Of a stretch of DNA of 64,000 nt, positions 32,878-41,174 are shown piece after piece (position 1 is the first letter of the stretch; every line of letters begins with the position of its first letter). The notes beneath the pieces were generated by a model. The model saw nothing but the letters and a program-made list of their open reading frames with translations, was not told the origin of the DNA and searched no databases. The translations under genes and the position numbers were made by a program. Source of the DNA: Xanthocytophaga flava (GTDB lineage: Bacteria; Bacteroidota; Bacteroidia; Cytophagales; 172606-1); assembly GCA_030068525.1 (NCBI GenBank), contig JASJOS010000016.1, positions 124,001-188,000 of the forward strand, read 5' to 3'.

Positions 32878-33999
32878 TCATTGCCATAGACAGGTTTTAG
32901 CGGAAGTAAATGGGATGTTTTCCTGAGTAAGAAAATTTGGTTTACACATAGTATTCTTCCATGTAGCATGAAAGACCTCAGTTGTTGAGCCAGAGATTGG
33001 AGGAACAATCCAATCCCAATCTGCAAATACTTCACGCTGATTTTTGGTTTCCAGACTATTATGTATTATAAACTGATCTGATGCTGTATGGTGATCGACT
33101 ATTTTAACTCCAGCCTGCTGATATGAGTGTAATACTGCGATGTTGAGTTCCACAAGGGCACGATCTTTCCAGAGTGTGTGATTAGCAGATGTATTCAGAC
33201 CCATTTTGTATGCTATAGTAGGTAGAAGATTGTATCGTTGGACATCTCCCAGATTGCGGGCGCCTATCTCCGTTCCCATATACCATCCATTAAAGGGGGC
33301 TGCTGTATATTCAATTCCACCAATTTCCAGCTTCATATTGGATATGACCGGAACAGCATACCAGCGAAGCTGTAAATCTGTGAACCAGTCATAATCAGGA
33401 TGAGATAGTATAACCTCTTTTATTTTTTCTGATGGAATTGTAAACATACGAGCCTCTCTATAAGGTAATTGTATGAGTAGAGGTAAAATGTCGAAATGTG
33501 TACGGGGACTTTGCCAGCCTAATTGTTGACACTTGTTTGTAAATTCATATTGGGCTGGATCTCCGATATATGTATGCGTATCCATTGAATAGTAGCCAGC
33601 ATATCGGACTAACTGGTGGTTGAGGATACGAATACCTTCAGTTTGTGAAGGGTGTTTGGGGGAGAAGATACTGATCACGGAACGAATGTTTCCCTCATTA
33701 GTAGCATAATCAAGATGCTCAAGTAATGCAGTAAAGATATCTTGTTCTGTTTGGAGATGTCTCATATCGCGTACTTTAAGGGATTTCCAGTAAAGTCTGC
33801 CAATACATCTGTTGCTATTCCTCCAGGCTAATTTGGCTCCATAGTCAAGTTCTTCAAATGTATGGATATAGGTTCCAGAGGTGTTTATGTCATCAACCAC
33901 CTGATTGATTCGTGTGGGAAGATCTGCTTCTAAGGCGAGTTCTGTATAGGTCTGAGATAGAAATTTTATCGCTTCTTGTTTCAAGTAATCCGGATTCAT
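32878..33999 (-). CDS. nos: Bacterial nitric oxide synthase oxygenase
   Basis: A 373-residue NOS oxygenase domain that oxidises L-arginine to citrulline and nitric oxide using borrowed reductases. The proximal heme ligand is Cys65 in WRNSNRCIGRLYW. The arginine-binding Glu244 is in PFNGWYMGTEIGARNL, and the pterin/dimer region DWDWIVPPISGSTTEVFH contains Trp330. The protein lacks the N-terminal hook and the C-terminal reductase domain of animal NOS, and its length matches the Bacillus enzymes (about 360). No dedicated reductase is adjacent. It lies downstream of an SRAP-like gene, with a perfect hairpin just before its start. NOS is uncommon in Bacteroidota, so horizontal acquisition is possible; the AT content does not stand out. 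Confidence 0.95.
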   Translation of the reverse strand: MNPDYLKQEAIKFLSQTYTELALEADLPTRINQVVDDINTSGTYIHTFEELDYGAKLAWRNSNRCIGRLYWKSLKVRDMRHLQTEQDIFTALLEHLDYATNEGNIRSVISIFSPKHPSQTEGIRILNHQLVRYAGYYSMDTHTYIGDPAQYEFTNKCQQLGWQSPRTHFDILPLLIQLPYREARMFTIPSEKIKEVILSHPDYDWFTDLQLRWYAVPVISNMKLEIGGIEYTAAPFNGWYMGTEIGARNLGDVQRYNLLPTIAYKMGLNTSANHTLWKDRALVELNIAVLHSYQQAGVKIVDHHTASDQFIIHNSLETKNQREVFADWDWIVPPISGSTTEVFHATWKNTMCKPNFLTQENIPFTSAKTCLWQ

Positions 34000-34162: not shown

Positions 34163-34840
34163 TTATTCAAATAAGACGTAGTTGCCAAACTGGTCAGTAG
34201 GCTGCGATGGAAGTGTAACTTCAGGTATATTCATATCTAATTGATTAATCTGACCAGACACTGGGAATAAACGGAGTTGATCGCTGGAATAGGGTTTAAT
34301 AAGAGGTAGAATTTCAGGTAATGTAGTGTTTGTTTGCAACCAGGTTTTTTCCTGTTCAAGAGGAAGCATAAGTGGCATTTTAGTAGCGATAGGTGCAATC
34401 AGTTCATTAGCATCTGTGGTGATCATAGCACATGAGATCTGGTTATTATTGTGTGATTCATATTGCCATACACCTGCAAACGCAAACGGCATATTCCACT
34501 TAAGTGTAATACGGTAAGGAATGCGACTTTTATAGGAGACCTTCTTCCAGAGATAAAAGCCGTCTGCAAGGATGATACAACGTTGGGTGAGGAATTGGGT
34601 TGTTTGGGGTGTTGTCTTTTGAGTATCCTGTTTGATAAACACTTTATGAATTGGTGTTTTTCTGTTCTCTGAAATACCCCATACCGCTTTTGTCAACTGT
34701 TTAGGCTGCAGATCAGTAATAACAGATATAGTATTTCCAGGAGAAATATTGTATTGAGGTTCTATGGTTCCTGGGACCTTTATCTCAAAACGACGTATAA
34801 TTTTTTCTTTTGGAAGACTAAAGGAATAACGATCGTACAT
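34163..34840 (-). CDS. SRAP/YedK (HMCES) family protein lacking catalytic residues
   Basis: A 225-residue homologue of the SOS-response-associated peptidase fold (YedK/HMCES), which normally crosslinks abasic sites in single-stranded DNA through Cys2. Family landmarks are clear: RYSFSLPKEKI near the N-terminus, YNISPGNTI, ILADGFYLWK, PFAFAGVW and the CAMITTDANELI block. Yet the catalytic residues are changed: Cys2-Gly3 is Tyr2-Asp3, the Glu of GFYEWK is Leu97, the His of IHxRMP is Ala152, and the NARxET segment is unrecognisable around residue 68. The frame is intact, so this is a maintained paralogue, not debris. An in-frame Met nine codons upstream would not restore the N-terminal Cys. Possibly a DNA-binding or regulatory derivative. 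Confidence 0.85.
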   Translation of the reverse strand: MYDRYSFSLPKEKIIRRFEIKVPGTIEPQYNISPGNTISVITDLQPKQLTKAVWGISENRKTPIHKVFIKQDTQKTTPQTTQFLTQRCIILADGFYLWKKVSYKSRIPYRITLKWNMPFAFAGVWQYESHNNNQISCAMITTDANELIAPIATKMPLMLPLEQEKTWLQTNTTLPEILPLIKPYSSDQLRLFPVSGQINQLDMNIPEVTLPSQPTDQFGNYVLFE

Positions 34841-35472
34841 AAACTCACAAAATATTCGATATAACACGACTCAACAAAGCTATAAAAATACAGAAAATAT
34901 GAATACCTCATTGAGATAACAGCTCTACTACTAGTAATAACTTTATAAACGAAATAGTTTATTCTATCTGGACTTTTATGGTAAGAGTCGTTTGGTCTGT
35001 TGACTTAAAGTTATCGTCTGTAAGAATAAGTGTAGGTACATATACTTGGATTTTTTCAATAAATGTAAGTTTTTCTAAACAACTATGGATTTTATTAGAA
35101 GCTTATTCGCATGAAGGAATACGGTTTTACTAATGAGAATTTATCTTTTTTACTGAGATATAAAAAGGGTTTATTTGTAATATGTTGATATTTAAGTTTT
35201 TATGGTTTTGTTTTTATAGTATAGTATAACAAAAGCTACTTGCTGGAAAATAGGTTTCATACGAAAAAATACGAGTTTTATCGGAAGAATCGCTAGGTTA
35301 ATAGACATTAGATATAAGGGAAACAGGATTTTTATATTGATTGTTAGAAGTTTAGGTGATTATAATGCACTAGTAACCAGCCTCTCACTTAAGGATAAAC
35401 TACAACTTCTTACAATTTGTGAGATATTTGTATACAGGAATAGACATGAGTGAATCATATTATATTTTAACT
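34841..35472. other. 632-bp AT-rich intergenic region
   Basis: Divergent spacer between the SRAP-like gene and the DUF4468-like gene. It is rich in A/T homopolymer runs. I see no RNA gene, repeat or supported short ORF. Confidence 0.5.
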
Positions 35473-36126: not shown

Positions 36127-36211
36127 TAATAGTTAGTGTATTATATGTTGCATATTAAGTAAAATGAAATAATTCTATAATCTCTATAAAAAAAGTAGAC
36201 AATTTGTTTGC

Positions 36212-36219
36212 TATATTTG
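36212..36219 (+). promoter_or_regulatory. Bacteroidota -7 promoter element (riboswitch transcript)
   Basis: TATATTTG, a perfect TAnnTTTG match, lies 57 bp before the riboswitch P1 helix and after the preceding terminator, so it is well placed to start the leader transcript. Confidence 0.6.
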
Positions 36220-36275
36220 GTTTCGTATATATATATTTGCAATATAATCCTGCTAATTAATACCACCATTAATTA

Positions 36276-36385
36276 GTTAATTTATACAGAGGAAGGGAGA
36301 GAACAGGCTCGCAGAACTTCCAGCAACCTTCCGACCACCCGGAAACAGTGCTACATCCTGACCGAATAGGTAAATATAAATTAAC
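36276..36385 (+). ncRNA. SAM-I-type (S-box) riboswitch
   Basis: P1 is a perfect 11-bp helix, GTTAATTTATA (36276-36286) with TATAAATTAAC (36375-36385). Inside, GGAAG and CTTCC (P2) enclose a kink-turn-like GAGAACAGGCTCGCAGAA. AGCAACC then leads into the P3 hairpin TTCCG/CGGAA, and the SAM-I core ACAGTGCTACATCCTGACC follows, closely matching the family consensus AAGGUGCUAAUUCCUGC. The order of elements equals SAM-I. It precedes a short Cys/Met-containing ORF and a cysteine desulfurase gene. The expression platform is not obvious: no terminator with a U-tract follows, so control may be at translation. Confidence 0.85.
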
Positions 36386-36391
36386 AATCGT

Positions 36392-36442
36392 ATGCTAAAA
36401 ACAACTTATTACCCTACCTGCGGACGAATGTGTTGCTACTAA
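36392..36442 (+). CDS. 16-residue Cys/Met-containing leader peptide
   Basis: An ATG seven bases after the riboswitch P1 opens a complete 16-codon frame, MLKTTYYPTCGRMCCY, ending in TAA. Three of the last seven residues are Cys and one is an internal Met (CGRMCCY), a composition expected of an attenuator-type leader peptide that senses charged tRNA-Cys or tRNA-Met. It lies between the SAM-I aptamer and the cysteine desulfurase gene. Two short hairpins (36447-36465 and 36482-36494) follow. I infer that its translation couples cysteine supply to expression of the downstream gene. It is below the size normally annotated; no homologue search was possible. Confidence 0.6.
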   Translation: MLKTTYYPTCGRMCCY

Positions 36443-36446
36443 AATA

Positions 36447-36494
36447 GATACATTTTTTCTGTATCGCATCTGGCAACATAAGAGGTTAGACCTC
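36447..36494 (+). promoter_or_regulatory. Two small hairpins after the leader peptide
   Basis: GATACA/TGTATC with a 7-nt U-rich loop (36447-36465) and GAGGT/ACCTC with a 3-nt loop (36482-36494) follow the leader ORF. They may form the switching structures of the leader; neither is a classical terminator. Confidence 0.4.
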
Positions 36495-36607
36495 AACTCA
36501 GACATTATATCTATGTTTAGAGAGCCTGAACATTTCGACTCCTATAAAAGAAAGTGCTATTATGTCTGTTCCATATCTTTTCACTTATTATTCTTTAGTA
36601 CAACTTT

Positions 36608-37771
36608 ATGGAAATATACTTCGATAATGCAGCTACAACACCTTTAGATTCGCAGGTATTAGAAGCTATGTTACCTTACTTAGGTAAGCATCATGGTAAT
36701 CCTTCATCAACACATCAATATGGAAGACGGGCTAAAGATGCAGTAGAGTCAGCCAGAAATACAATTGCTACTTTGCTACATGCTTCACCTGAGGAGATTT
36801 TCTTTACATCAGGAGCCACAGAAGCAAATAATCTGGCATTGGCAGGTAGTATTCATACGTTACGTTTTCGGCATTTTATAACAAGCCCTTTAGAACATGA
36901 TTCAGTGTTAAAGAGTCTGGATTTTTATCGCAAGAATTATCAGATAAGAGTTAGCCTGGTTGAGACAGACGCATGGGGTAGAGTTAATCTTGGACACCTT
37001 CAATACTTATTACAAAAGAATCCTGCATCCTTTGTAAGTCTGATGCATGGAAATAATGAAATTGGGAATCTGAATGACATAGAAGAAATTGGCAGTATAT
37101 GCCGCACTTATAAAGCTGTATTTCATTCAGATACGGTTCAGACTCTAGGGAAAAGGCGATTAAATCTTTCAAAGGTTCCGGTTCATTTTTTAGTTGGTTC
37201 AGCCCATAAGTTTCATGGGCCCAAAGGAATTGGCTTTCTCTATGTAAATAAACAGATCCATTTGCAACCATTGATGCATGGTGGCTCTCAGGAAAAAAGT
37301 TTGAGAGCGGGTACTGAAAATGTTGCAGGTATTGTAGGTTTGTCAACCGCCTTATCACTTGCCTATGAGAACCTGGATGACACACAGAAATATCTGCAAA
37401 AATTAAAAGGTTATCTGATCCGAAGATTGAAAGAAATATTTCCGCAACTTACCTTTAATGGCGATAGCGATCAACAAGATAAGAGCCTTCCCTCTATTGT
37501 TAATATTGGGTTTCCTGCTTTAGGTGATAGAGCTCTGGTAGATATACTGAATGAAAAAGGAATATATGTATCAGGAGGAAGTGCATGTTCCAATCTGGTA
37601 GAACATGGGTCACATGTACTTAGACAGTTAGGTCGTAATCTGGAACTAGAGAATATTCGCTTCTCATTTAGTAAGTACAACACGCTGGCAGAAGTGGACT
37701 ATCTGGTTAAGATTTTATCAAATCTTTATGAACCTCAAAATATACTACACTATGTTGGTGTAGCTAAGTGA
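36608..37771 (+). CDS. Cysteine desulfurase (NifS/IscS-like)
   Basis: A 387-residue PLP enzyme that removes sulfur from L-cysteine as a protein persulfide, supplying Fe-S clusters or other sulfur users. The N-terminal IYFDNAATTPL, GNPSSTH and the PLP Lys201 in VGSAHKFHGPKG are clear. The catalytic Cys327 lies in SGGSACSNLVEHGSHVLR, so it is a class I (NifS/IscS-type) enzyme and not SufS. No iscU/iscA or tRNA-thiolation genes are adjacent, so it is not the standard isc operon. Its leader holds a SAM-I riboswitch and a Cys-rich mini-ORF, which suggests expression set by methionine/cysteine status. Downstream genes include ComA and a fatty-acid-hydroxylase-type enzyme. Confidence 0.93.
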   Translation: MEIYFDNAATTPLDSQVLEAMLPYLGKHHGNPSSTHQYGRRAKDAVESARNTIATLLHASPEEIFFTSGATEANNLALAGSIHTLRFRHFITSPLEHDSVLKSLDFYRKNYQIRVSLVETDAWGRVNLGHLQYLLQKNPASFVSLMHGNNEIGNLNDIEEIGSICRTYKAVFHSDTVQTLGKRRLNLSKVPVHFLVGSAHKFHGPKGIGFLYVNKQIHLQPLMHGGSQEKSLRAGTENVAGIVGLSTALSLAYENLDDTQKYLQKLKGYLIRRLKEIFPQLTFNGDSDQQDKSLPSIVNIGFPALGDRALVDILNEKGIYVSGGSACSNLVEHGSHVLRQLGRNLELENIRFSFSKYNTLAEVDYLVKILSNLYEPQNILHYVGVAK

Positions 37772-37966: not shown

Positions 37967-38017
37967 AAACCTGAAGGAAGATTGTCCGCTTATATTTCAA
38001 TAAAGGTCTTGTTTACT

Positions 38018-39241
38018 ATGAAATTAAATTATCTGGCATTTGCAATTCCTGTTTTCTTGTTGTTTACGGCACTAGAATATTGGGTCGCAAGAAAACAACA
38101 GAAAGAAGATTATTTCCATTTTGATAGGTCTATTGTCAATATAAGTATTGGTATTGCTGAAAGACTTGCGGATTTATTTACAGTTGGTATTTTCTATTAT
38201 TTCTATACATACATTCATACTCATTTTGCTTTATTTCATATCAAACCAAGTATATTATTATGGTTAGCATTGTTCTTATGTACAGATTTTGTCTGGTATT
38301 GGTATCATCGTTTGGCTCATGAAATTAGCTTATTATGGAGTGTACATGTAGTACATCATCAAAGTGAAGACTTTAACTATACAGTTTCTGCACGTATTAC
38401 TGTTTTTCAGGCATTAGTTCGGGTTGGTTTCTGGTCTGTACTCCCTTGGATTGGTTTTCCACCAGAAATGATTACAAGTATTTTATTAGTTCACGGTGCT
38501 TATCCTTTTTTTATTCACACACGCACTATTGGCAAACTGGGAGTGCTGGAATATATATTGGTAACACCTTCCCACCATCGGGTGCATCATGCTTCAGACG
38601 AGCATTATCTGGATAAGAATTATGGAGATGTGCTTATTATTTGGGATAAGATCTTCGGAACTTTTGTTGAAGAAAAGGAAGAGCCACACTATGGTTTGAC
38701 AAAGCCACTAAACAGTCATAGCTTTTTATGGCAGCACTTCCATTTTATACTAGAGTTGCTATATACAGTTAAACATACACAAGGGTGGGGCAATAAAATA
38801 AAAATCGTTTTTGGTGGACCTGATTTGATTTCTGACGATGTAAGGGATAAACTGGAAAAAAGATTTCTTTTTAACAAATCAGTCAATGTCAGTAGTATAC
38901 GATTTAAAAATTATGTCATATGGCAGATTGGAAGTGTACTTCTTAGTTTGTTTCTGGTTATTTTATTTGAACATCAGATTTCGCTTAGCATACAAATCGG
39001 AGTGGCACTGTTAATAGTATTAACACTTATTAATTGTGGTGCTATTTTAGAACAACGGACATGGGTTTTTTACCTGGAATATACGAGGCTAATAACTGCT
39101 ACATTGTTTGCCTACATTTATTTTGGTCCAACAAATATAGTTGTGTTTGGTAGCCTGTTTGTAGTAACTCTGATCTGCTTCTTTACCTGGTTTGAAAAAC
39201 AGTATCTGCGTTTAATTTATGGTTCTGTTGTTGCAGCTTAA
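38018..39241 (+). CDS. Fatty acid hydroxylase / sterol desaturase superfamily membrane enzyme
   Basis: A 407-residue integral membrane di-iron oxygenase-type protein. Histidine clusters of the superfamily are present: WYHRLAHE (HxxxH), HVVHHQ (HxxHH), a His in the loop FFIHTR, and SHHRVHHASDEHY, followed by NYGDVLIIWDKIFGTF. Several membrane helices precede them and three or four follow the catalytic part (about 310-405), an extension typical of bacterial alkylglycerol-monooxygenase-like members. It probably hydroxylates or desaturates a lipid chain. The ATG at 38018 is chosen over an upstream TTG. Its place between a cysteine desulfurase and ComA hints at sulfonolipid modification, which is inference. 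Confidence 0.85.
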   Translation: MKLNYLAFAIPVFLLFTALEYWVARKQQKEDYFHFDRSIVNISIGIAERLADLFTVGIFYYFYTYIHTHFALFHIKPSILLWLALFLCTDFVWYWYHRLAHEISLLWSVHVVHHQSEDFNYTVSARITVFQALVRVGFWSVLPWIGFPPEMITSILLVHGAYPFFIHTRTIGKLGVLEYILVTPSHHRVHHASDEHYLDKNYGDVLIIWDKIFGTFVEEKEEPHYGLTKPLNSHSFLWQHFHFILELLYTVKHTQGWGNKIKIVFGGPDLISDDVRDKLEKRFLFNKSVNVSSIRFKNYVIWQIGSVLLSLFLVILFEHQISLSIQIGVALLIVLTLINCGAILEQRTWVFYLEYTRLITATLFAYIYFGPTNIVVFGSLFVVTLICFFTWFEKQYLRLIYGSVVAA

Positions 39242-40397: not shown

Positions 40398-41174
40398 ATG
40401 AATGCAGAATCGTACTTAAACTATCATCTGACGCAGCTTCCTGAAAGATCTGTGAAACCTCGTGAGGCAGGTTTGACAATGGTTATGGATAAGGGATTGA
40501 GTTTGCGGGAAGCAGGTGACTTTATAGAAAAAGGATCTGAATTAACAGATCTTGTAAAATTAGGTTGGGCTACTTCTTATCTGACACCTAATTTGAGGAA
40601 GAAACTGGCTTTATACAGAGATGCAGGATTGCCTGTCTATTTTGGGGGAACCTTATTCGAAGCATTTGTAATCCGTAATCAGTTTGATGATTATCGACGA
40701 TTACTGGATGAGTTTGGTATGACACACGCTGAAGTATCGGATGGTTCTATTGACATGCCACATCAGGAAAAATGTTATTATATTGAAGCTCTGTCTCAAC
40801 AGGTAACAGTCATCTCTGAAGTAGGATCAAAGGATGGCGAAAAGATAATTCCACCTTATAAGTGGATTTCCATGATGAATGCCGAAAAGCAGGCAGGTGC
40901 ATGGAAAGTGATTGCAGAGGCCCGAGAATCTGGAACCGCAGGTATTTTCAGAAGTAATGGCGAAGTTCGTCCCGGTCTGGTAGATGAAATCTTATCTCAA
41001 ATACCACCAGAATATATCATCTGGGAAACGCCACAAAAAGCACAACAGGTTTGGTTTGTAAAATTGTTGGGGGCAAATGTGAATCTAGGAAATATTGAAC
41101 CCAATGAAGTTATTTCTGTAGAGACCATACGCTTAGGGTTACGAGGTGATACTTTTCTTACGTTCATTAATTAA
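40398..41174 (+). CDS. comA: Phosphosulfolactate synthase (ComA family)
   Basis: A 258-residue TIM-barrel enzyme of the ComA family, which adds sulfite to phosphoenolpyruvate to give (R)-phosphosulfolactate, the first step of coenzyme M synthesis in methanogens. Family segments are visible: PREAGLTMVMDKGL, VKLGWATSYL, VYFGGTLFEAF, AEVSDGSIDMP, VISEVGSKDGEK and the C-terminal LGANVNLGNIEP. Length agrees with archaeal ComA (about 250). Bacteroidota do not make coenzyme M, so it likely feeds another C3 sulfonate such as sulfolactate, or cysteate used for capnine-type sulfonolipids. comB/comC genes are not adjacent. Confidence 0.9.
   Translation: MNAESYLNYHLTQLPERSVKPREAGLTMVMDKGLSLREAGDFIEKGSELTDLVKLGWATSYLTPNLRKKLALYRDAGLPVYFGGTLFEAFVIRNQFDDYRRLLDEFGMTHAEVSDGSIDMPHQEKCYYIEALSQQVTVISEVGSKDGEKIIPPYKWISMMNAEKQAGAWKVIAEARESGTAGIFRSNGEVRPGLVDEILSQIPPEYIIWETPQKAQQVWFVKLLGANVNLGNIEPNEVISVETIRLGLRGDTFLTFIN

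Follow-up and report, generated by a model that had tools for sequence, protein, structure and literature searches.

The desulfurase locus and its surroundings

Within the window, by which we mean the whole 64,000-nt stretch of Xanthocytophaga flava DNA that was analysed, an element assigned to the SAM-I riboswitches is followed on the forward strand by a short ORF with Cys and Met codons and by a predicted cysteine desulfurase gene. The features of the locus are as follows.

36208-36239 (+): predicted promoter, with TTG at 36208-36210, then 21 nt, then TATATTTG at 36232-36239 (pattern match in the window and in the congener, G002)
36276-36286 (+): 5' strand of P1 in its extended form, GTTAATTTATA (read in the sequence; three pairs beyond the Rfam P1)
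36279-36382 (+): SAM-I riboswitch aptamer (RF00162), TATAA subtype (cmscan, 68.4 bits, E 7.5e-14)
36375-36385 (+): 3' strand of P1 in its extended form, TATAAATTAAC (read in the sequence; ends 6 nt ahead of the leader ATG)
36392-36442 (+): leader ORF MLKTTYYPTCGRMCCY plus stop, 16 codons (read in the sequence; frame, stop position and Cys/Met codons kept in G002)
36429-36480 (+): predicted stem pairing the Met-Cys-Cys codons (36429-36438) with 36471-36480 over 10 bp, around a hairpin at 36447-36452/36460-36465 (RNAfold minimum free energy)
36482-36494 (+): small hairpin GAGGT/ACCTC, with no T-run after it (sequence and RNAfold; kept in G002)
36569-36613 (+): predicted pairing of TTCCATA (36569-36575) with TATGGAA (36607-36613), over the desulfurase start codon (fold of 36389-36640)
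36608-37771 (+): predicted cysteine desulfurase of the IscS/NifS type, 387 aa, a genus-restricted second copy (Pfam and NCBIfam)

The match to the SAM-I model is full length (model positions 1-108 of 108), exceeds the gathering threshold of 44.4 bits and is the sole Rfam match above gathering in the whole window; by its covariance-model score the element is a SAM-I riboswitch, with SAM binding predicted. It is one of five SAM-I sites in a genome of 63 contigs and 9.49 Mb. An 11-bp P1 can be drawn, against 8 bp in the Rfam version. A predicted promoter of the Bacteroidota type, for which the consensus is TTG / TAnnTTTG, fits at 36208-36239. A preliminary description made from the DNA letters had named a promoter, a SAM-I-type aptamer, an 11-bp P1, two small hairpins and a downstream cysteine desulfurase, and all of these were recovered: the promoter pattern matches, the Rfam model gives 68.4 bits at 36279-36382, both P1 strands are present and the hairpins are predicted at 36447-36465 and 36482-36494. 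As neither hairpin is followed by a T-run, both were rejected as terminators, and the window does not have the form of an intrinsic-terminator platform. The mini-ORF that had been placed seven bases past the aptamer is likewise present and complete, its ATG lying 6 nt past the 11-bp P1 and 9 nt past the 8-bp Rfam P1.

The desulfurase carries an Aminotran_5 domain (Pfam, E 5e-77), and its top NCBIfam models are FeS_nifS, DndA and IscS, every one under its equivalog cut-off (the best, FeS_nifS, at 367 bits against 531). It is thus a cysteine desulfurase of the IscS/NifS type by sequence class, at scores below the equivalog cut-offs. Its identity is 97% to the congener's copy and 51% to a paralog in its own genome (G000:C11). 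Congener aside, a SAM-I element precedes a desulfurase in two other genomes. One site (G023, L087) has an ORF without Cys; at the other (G154, L154), where the desulfurase is 51% identical, no ATG-started leader was found, and the ORF has fewer than two Cys if GTG and TTG starts are allowed. Control of a desulfurase by stacked SAM and Cys/Met sensing had been called unusual; desulfurases are indeed not the usual targets, and the window copy is genus-restricted.

Elsewhere in the window, the reverse strand carries a gene for a bacterial nitric oxide synthase oxygenase (32878-33999; Pfam NO_synthase, E 2e-161) and, adjoining it, a SRAP-domain gene (34163-34867). On the 3' side of the desulfurase, a gene of the fatty acid hydroxylase family (37982-39241, +; Pfam FA_hydroxylase) is probably transcribed separately. 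A ComA-like phosphosulfolactate synthase gene (40398-41174, +; Pfam ComA, E 6e-88; TIGR03849, 240 bits, under the cut-off of 280), which is sulfur-related, lies 2.6 kb downstream of the desulfurase.

The leader ORF has Cys codons at 36419-36421, 36431-36433 and 36434-36436 and an internal Met codon at 36428-36430. With three Cys and one internal Met in 16 codons, it has the make-up of a leader-peptide attenuator, a short upstream ORF with codons for amino acids of the pathway. When the downstream DNA was shuffled 20,000 times, an ATG ORF at the window's spacing and with three or more Cys among its last 12 residues appeared at a rate of 0.0005.

The congener (locus L037) has the same aptamer, leader and desulfurase. 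It differs from the window at 2 of 104 nt in the aptamer, 2 of 51 nt in the leader and 17 of 166 columns in the spacer, with 12 differences in the 60 nt upstream of the aptamer. In the leader, one change replaces Pro by Ser and the other exchanges one stop codon for another (TAA-to-TGA), so that the frame, the place of the stop and every Cys and Met codon are kept. The predicted 10-bp stem over the Cys codons has a shorter form in the congener, and the block predicted to pair over the desulfurase start codon is identical, two sequences being too few to prove either pairing. A second small ORF, at 36513 in the window, was rejected, a stop following directly after that start in the congener. In the third genome of the genus, which is 72% complete, neither the aptamer nor the window desulfurase was found, the best protein match being 51%.

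The genus has further pairs of SAM-I copies (L004 and L005 in G000:C25; L038 and L040 in G002:C21), 13-19 kb apart and in opposite directions, with leader ORFs starting at +9 or +11. One copy of a pair stands before a secreted gene, presumably YceI-like, and behind the other, the first downstream stretch contains no gene of 100 codons or more.

Leader ORFs behind SAM-I aptamers in related bacteria

SAM-I sites were drawn from three sets. The first holds 105 sites, from the window's own genome and from 47 of the 59 relatives searched, of which 90 were used. The second consists of 71 further sites among those listed for the class and phylum, 60 chosen for spread and 11 of 30 ready loci, and the third of at least 120 named loci from a pattern scan that demanded a TATAA end and that include Pedobacter, Mucilaginibacter, Pontibacter and Algoriphagus. 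After 8 repeats were dropped from 281, there were 273 distinct sites; because sites share descent, their counts, and a Fisher value as well, overstate independence. A site was assigned to the TATAA subtype when the 3' strand of P1 begins with TATAA (or TATGA, or AATAAA), and a leader was called a Cys leader when at least two Cys fall within the last 12 residues of the ORF.

In the first set, an ATG at +5 to +14 past P1 with a stop within 100 codons is present at 52 of the 90 sites (13.7% in shuffles). CCC occurs in 24 of these 52 ORFs, in none of 18,000 shuffles and in 1 of 2,520 upstream control windows. In the 24 leaders, the Cys run lies close to the stop or directly at it and is encoded by both TGT (97) and TGC (48); since both are used, it is codons that are conserved, rather than one RNA word. 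Over the first two sets, with GTG and TTG starts allowed, ORFs of 8 codons or more that start between +5 and +14 are found at 55 of 63 TATAA sites and 21 of 98 other sites. Sites from outside the class yielded no CCC leader (0/26). Among the 120 pattern-scan matches listed, 92 have an ORF, 46 have CCC and 72 have two or more Cys among the last 12 residues.

Over the 273 distinct sites, Cys leaders stand behind 109 of 176 TATAA aptamers versus 3 of 97 others. A count with any start from -3 onward and at least three Cys in the last 12 residues gives 96 of 176 and 6 of 97, where shuffles give 5.0 of 273; of the 96 ORFs, 84 begin at +5 to +14. In the 142 TATAA leaders, Cys makes up 30.6% and Met 8.0% of the last 12 residues, versus 1.8% and 1.1% of the preceding part, and many leaders of the class end in poly-Cys. 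The window leader is a short member of this class, with three Cys, in two genomes of one genus. A motif xxCGRMCCx, put forward in the preliminary description as possibly conserved among relatives, is not conserved beyond the congener, and the exact motif CGRMCC was rejected as the conserved unit. The feature conserved in relatives is a Cys-rich (and Met-rich) leader end immediately 5' of the stop.

One genus was re-sampled. It has a GTG at exactly +9 in 12 of 13 TATAA sites (one of the 13 already in the first set), and all 12 GTG ORFs have adjacent Cys codons, which in L317 lie before the last 12 residues. Of its 17 other-type sites, 12 have an ORF, and two of these (L311, L320) qualify as Cys leaders, though with no adjacent Cys within the last 12 residues. 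The leaders L333 and L334 differ by a whole codon. Searched against NCBIfam, eight leader peptides gave no curated family at E <=0.001 (one weak hit, E 0.25), and four of the same eight gave no match in Pfam. Rfam searches of 10 leader loci returned SAM alone at gathering level.

Two observations stand apart from the Cys leaders. Seven other-type sites of one genus (L306, L307, L309, L312, L320, L322, L323) have an ORF with a common SSDLSEGLFL-like stretch, which may be coding or may reflect a conserved terminator hairpin. The SAM-I pattern is also matched on a contig titled Nitrosopumilus, an archaeal MAG (L265), by chance or through a binning error.

Gene classes were assigned by sequence motifs, with one representative of each (MetY, MetH, MetX, MetZ, PAPS reductase, sulfite-reductase-like, L154 desulfurase) checked against NCBIfam and Pfam. 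The MetY (TIGR01326) and PAPS reductase representatives scored above the NCBIfam cut-off, and the MetH, MetX and MetZ fragments or proteins and the nitrite/sulfite reductase family protein were best matches under the equivalog cut-offs. Each gene was taken to start at the first ATG that opens a frame of 100 codons or more, which will be wrong at some sites (e.g. L008, L274). So classed, TATAA sites have Cys leaders at 68 of 89 MetY genes, 5 of 5 sulfite-reductase-like genes, 4 of 12 MetX genes, 1 of 17 MetZ/MetB genes and 2 of 3 desulfurases (the window and its congener). MetH has none at 36 sites (0/5 TATAA, 0/31 other). By these counts, the leader accompanies sulfide- or sulfate-fixing steps and leaderless sites belong more to methionine-only steps, with MetX mixed. 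Since MetY has a Cys leader at 1 of 14 sites of the other subtype, the subtype matters besides the gene. A RimK-like ATP-grasp protein follows a TATAA-type SAM-I element and a Cys leader at six loci (L071, assigned by NCBIfam and Pfam; L053, L319, L326, L331 and L334, assigned by eye), and a sulfur-linked role for it is worth a look.

A proposed serial switch and competing explanations

The linkage of the ORF to the TATAA subtype, its fixed start spacing, the enrichment in Cys and Met, the use of both TGT and TGC, the sulfur-assimilation targets and the conservation in the congener together suggest that the window holds an example of a two-input sulfur switch of Bacteroidota, where SAM-I would gate the entry of ribosomes to a leader ORF rich in Cys/Met codons. 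Judging from sequence comparison, we give this reading a probability of about 0.62. The odds appear even that the class as a whole is a widespread natural serial RNA AND gate, reading SAM and then Cys (perhaps Met), generally without an intrinsic terminator. The preliminary description had envisaged a two-input circuit of stacked sensors. The two inputs draw strong support from the comparison, in which Cys/Met-rich ORFs go with the subtype and with sulfur-assimilation genes and not with metH, although sensing by the peptide is presumed. As for the stacking, the aptamer lies where the leader begins, and two sensors in series look a better description than two independent ones. Cys sensing by the leader is likely for the class as a whole and less certain at the window locus.

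We infer a gate by SAM on the leader start, a ribosome stall and an output step. At high SAM, P1 would be stabilised with its 3' strand a few nucleotides before the leader start, leaving the leader untranslated and the gene off. At low SAM, ribosomes would load onto the leader. If Cys-tRNA (and perhaps Met-tRNA) were ample, they would reach the stop and leave; if it were scarce, they would halt on the Cys codons before the stop, protecting the RNA behind and allowing the gene to be expressed. Expression would then require both low SAM and low Cys.

The proposed gate has a parallel at TATAA sites without a leader, where in 7 of 34 cases the main gene itself starts with an ATG at +4 to +11, against 1 of 76 other-type sites without an ORF; six of the seven are MetX by sequence. 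Together with the SAM-I forms described in PMC2258182 as having the ribosome-binding site in P1, these direct starts argue for a gate on the start codon. Pairing beyond P1 was equalled in 0 of 500 permutations at TATAA sites with an ORF, in 1 of 500 at TATAA sites without one and, more weakly, in 4 of 500 at other sites (6 sites in this test having no recognisable 5' P1 strand). Because TATAA sites without an ORF have the extra pairs too, these mark the subtype, not the leader, and were rejected as leader-specific evidence.

The output step is the weakest part of the model. Rho-dependent termination past the leader would be a first guess for the class, and an alternative local to the window would be the unmasking of the gene's start. 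Folding of the 100 nt past the leader stop is stronger than in shuffled sequence (mean z -1.25, n=108). For the Cys codons, pairing with post-stop RNA found no class-wide support (mean z -0.37, n=108, against -0.43 in a control segment, n=104), and local stems taking in Cys codons occur in some genera. Hiding of the start codon is also disfavoured as a general output, the gene-start region being unpaired at 0.62 in 107 Cys-leader sites versus 0.47 in 76 other-type sites without an ORF. The excess of C over G is 0.26 past the leader stop (n=103) versus 0.10 past P1 at leaderless sites (n=81), two groups that differ in genes and taxa; this is in keeping with Rho loading, and Rho is encoded.

Intrinsic termination bears on this step as well. 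Terminator-like hairpins at Cys-leader sites are slightly over shuffles (15 of 109, shuffles 4-9; around the stop 19 of 109, shuffles 8-17), which counts against the model, as intrinsic termination may act there. They are frequent at other-subtype sites without an ORF (27 of 76, shuffles 1-7), as would be expected if the window held an ordinary terminating SAM-I riboswitch, its ORF a chance frame and its small hairpins the expression platform. TATAA sites without an ORF show no such excess (4 of 32, shuffles 0-6), no T-run follows either hairpin in the window, and both the ORF and its Cys content are above chance, making this explanation highly improbable. A Cys/Met-rich peptide that acts as a product, nascent or free, sensing thiols, metals or oxidants rather than Cys-tRNA and arresting the ribosome or binding a partner, would account for the enrichment of Met besides Cys, as the side chains of both bind metals. 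Such a peptide sits poorly with targets that are sulfur-assimilation genes, and the wide variation in run length, spacing and flanking residues suits codon counting over a folded binding site; we consider it improbable.

A simpler gate, in which SAM alone sets whether ribosomes cover the leader, would make amino acids irrelevant at the window locus and its Cys codons a relic of the class. Leaders without Cys that keep the start spacing occur in the window's own family (e.g. L049, L050, L042) and among some Algoriphagus-like sites, and a Cys-consuming target would need no Cys input. Two further observations count against Cys sensing: MetY leaders of the own family mostly have no Cys run while their ORF start is kept, and the L004 leader ends in ECC in the window's genome (G000) and in GC, with a single Cys, in the congener. 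However, the three Cys codons and Met13 are kept in the window and the congener while the single amino-acid change falls elsewhere, and enrichment in Cys and Met runs across the class, so that a gate by SAM alone seems unlikely, if less so than either explanation above. Under the two-input switch, the desulfurase is a genus-restricted and physiologically puzzling target, the induction of a Cys-consuming enzyme at low Cys being odd. Its induction might guarantee persulfide for indispensable uses, or the window locus may respond in the opposite sense.

Relation to known regulators and significance

The arrangement in the window is real and part of a wider one, two known devices in series. The sulfur operon of Clostridium acetobutylicum pairs a T-box with an S-box, and in Bacteroidetes the Bacteroid-trp motif contains a leader peptide. 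The latter is listed as a cis-regulatory motif in PMC2864571, and a SAM-I antisense element is mentioned for the former in PMC2258182. The Clostridium pair brings SAM and Cys inputs to one sulfur locus, as we propose here, but through antisense RNA and a T-box; T-boxes (RF00230) gave 0 matches in the window's genome. The SAM-I (S-box) elements treated in PMC2258182 belong to the same aptamer family (RF00162), and their spacing from P1 to the start is alike at metX-like sites. Unlike the forms with a ribosome-binding site in P1, the start next to P1 is here that of a leader ORF and not of the regulated gene.

Cys-rich leaders are known from other phyla. PMC13236596 mentions mycobacterial polycysteine short ORFs (Canestrari 2020), Cys-responsive attenuators, which resemble the present ones as poly-Cys short ORFs before sulfur genes. 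They are described as leaderless, with no riboswitch named in that mention, whereas the present ORFs come after an aptamer and about 150 nt; in the window, the aptamer sits between the predicted promoter and the ORF, so that the ORF would not be leaderless. The cysS leader uORFC-8-2 of Rhodobacterales also has tandem Cys codons upstream and a proposed ribosome-mediated attenuation (PMC8632094), but in the account given there it differs in having an intrinsic terminator, no riboswitch, and another phylum and target. The SAM-II leaders of metA and metZ in Sinorhizobium, as summarised in PMC9373788, likewise have a SAM aptamer that masks a ribosome-binding site and regulates translation from a distance. 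They differ in aptamer class and in having two AUGs in frame with metA and, in that summary, no amino-acid-sensing ORF. Among the papers listed in our searches of the open PubMed Central literature, no description of a SAM riboswitch joined to a Cys leader was found.

Both riboswitches and leader-peptide attenuators are familiar devices; in the present arrangement, the former appears to control the access of ribosomes to the latter. If this is true, the arrangement would be a compact natural logic gate, would explain one SAM-I subtype that has no excess of terminators, and would show that bacteria without T-boxes can sense their supply of Cys at the level of RNA.
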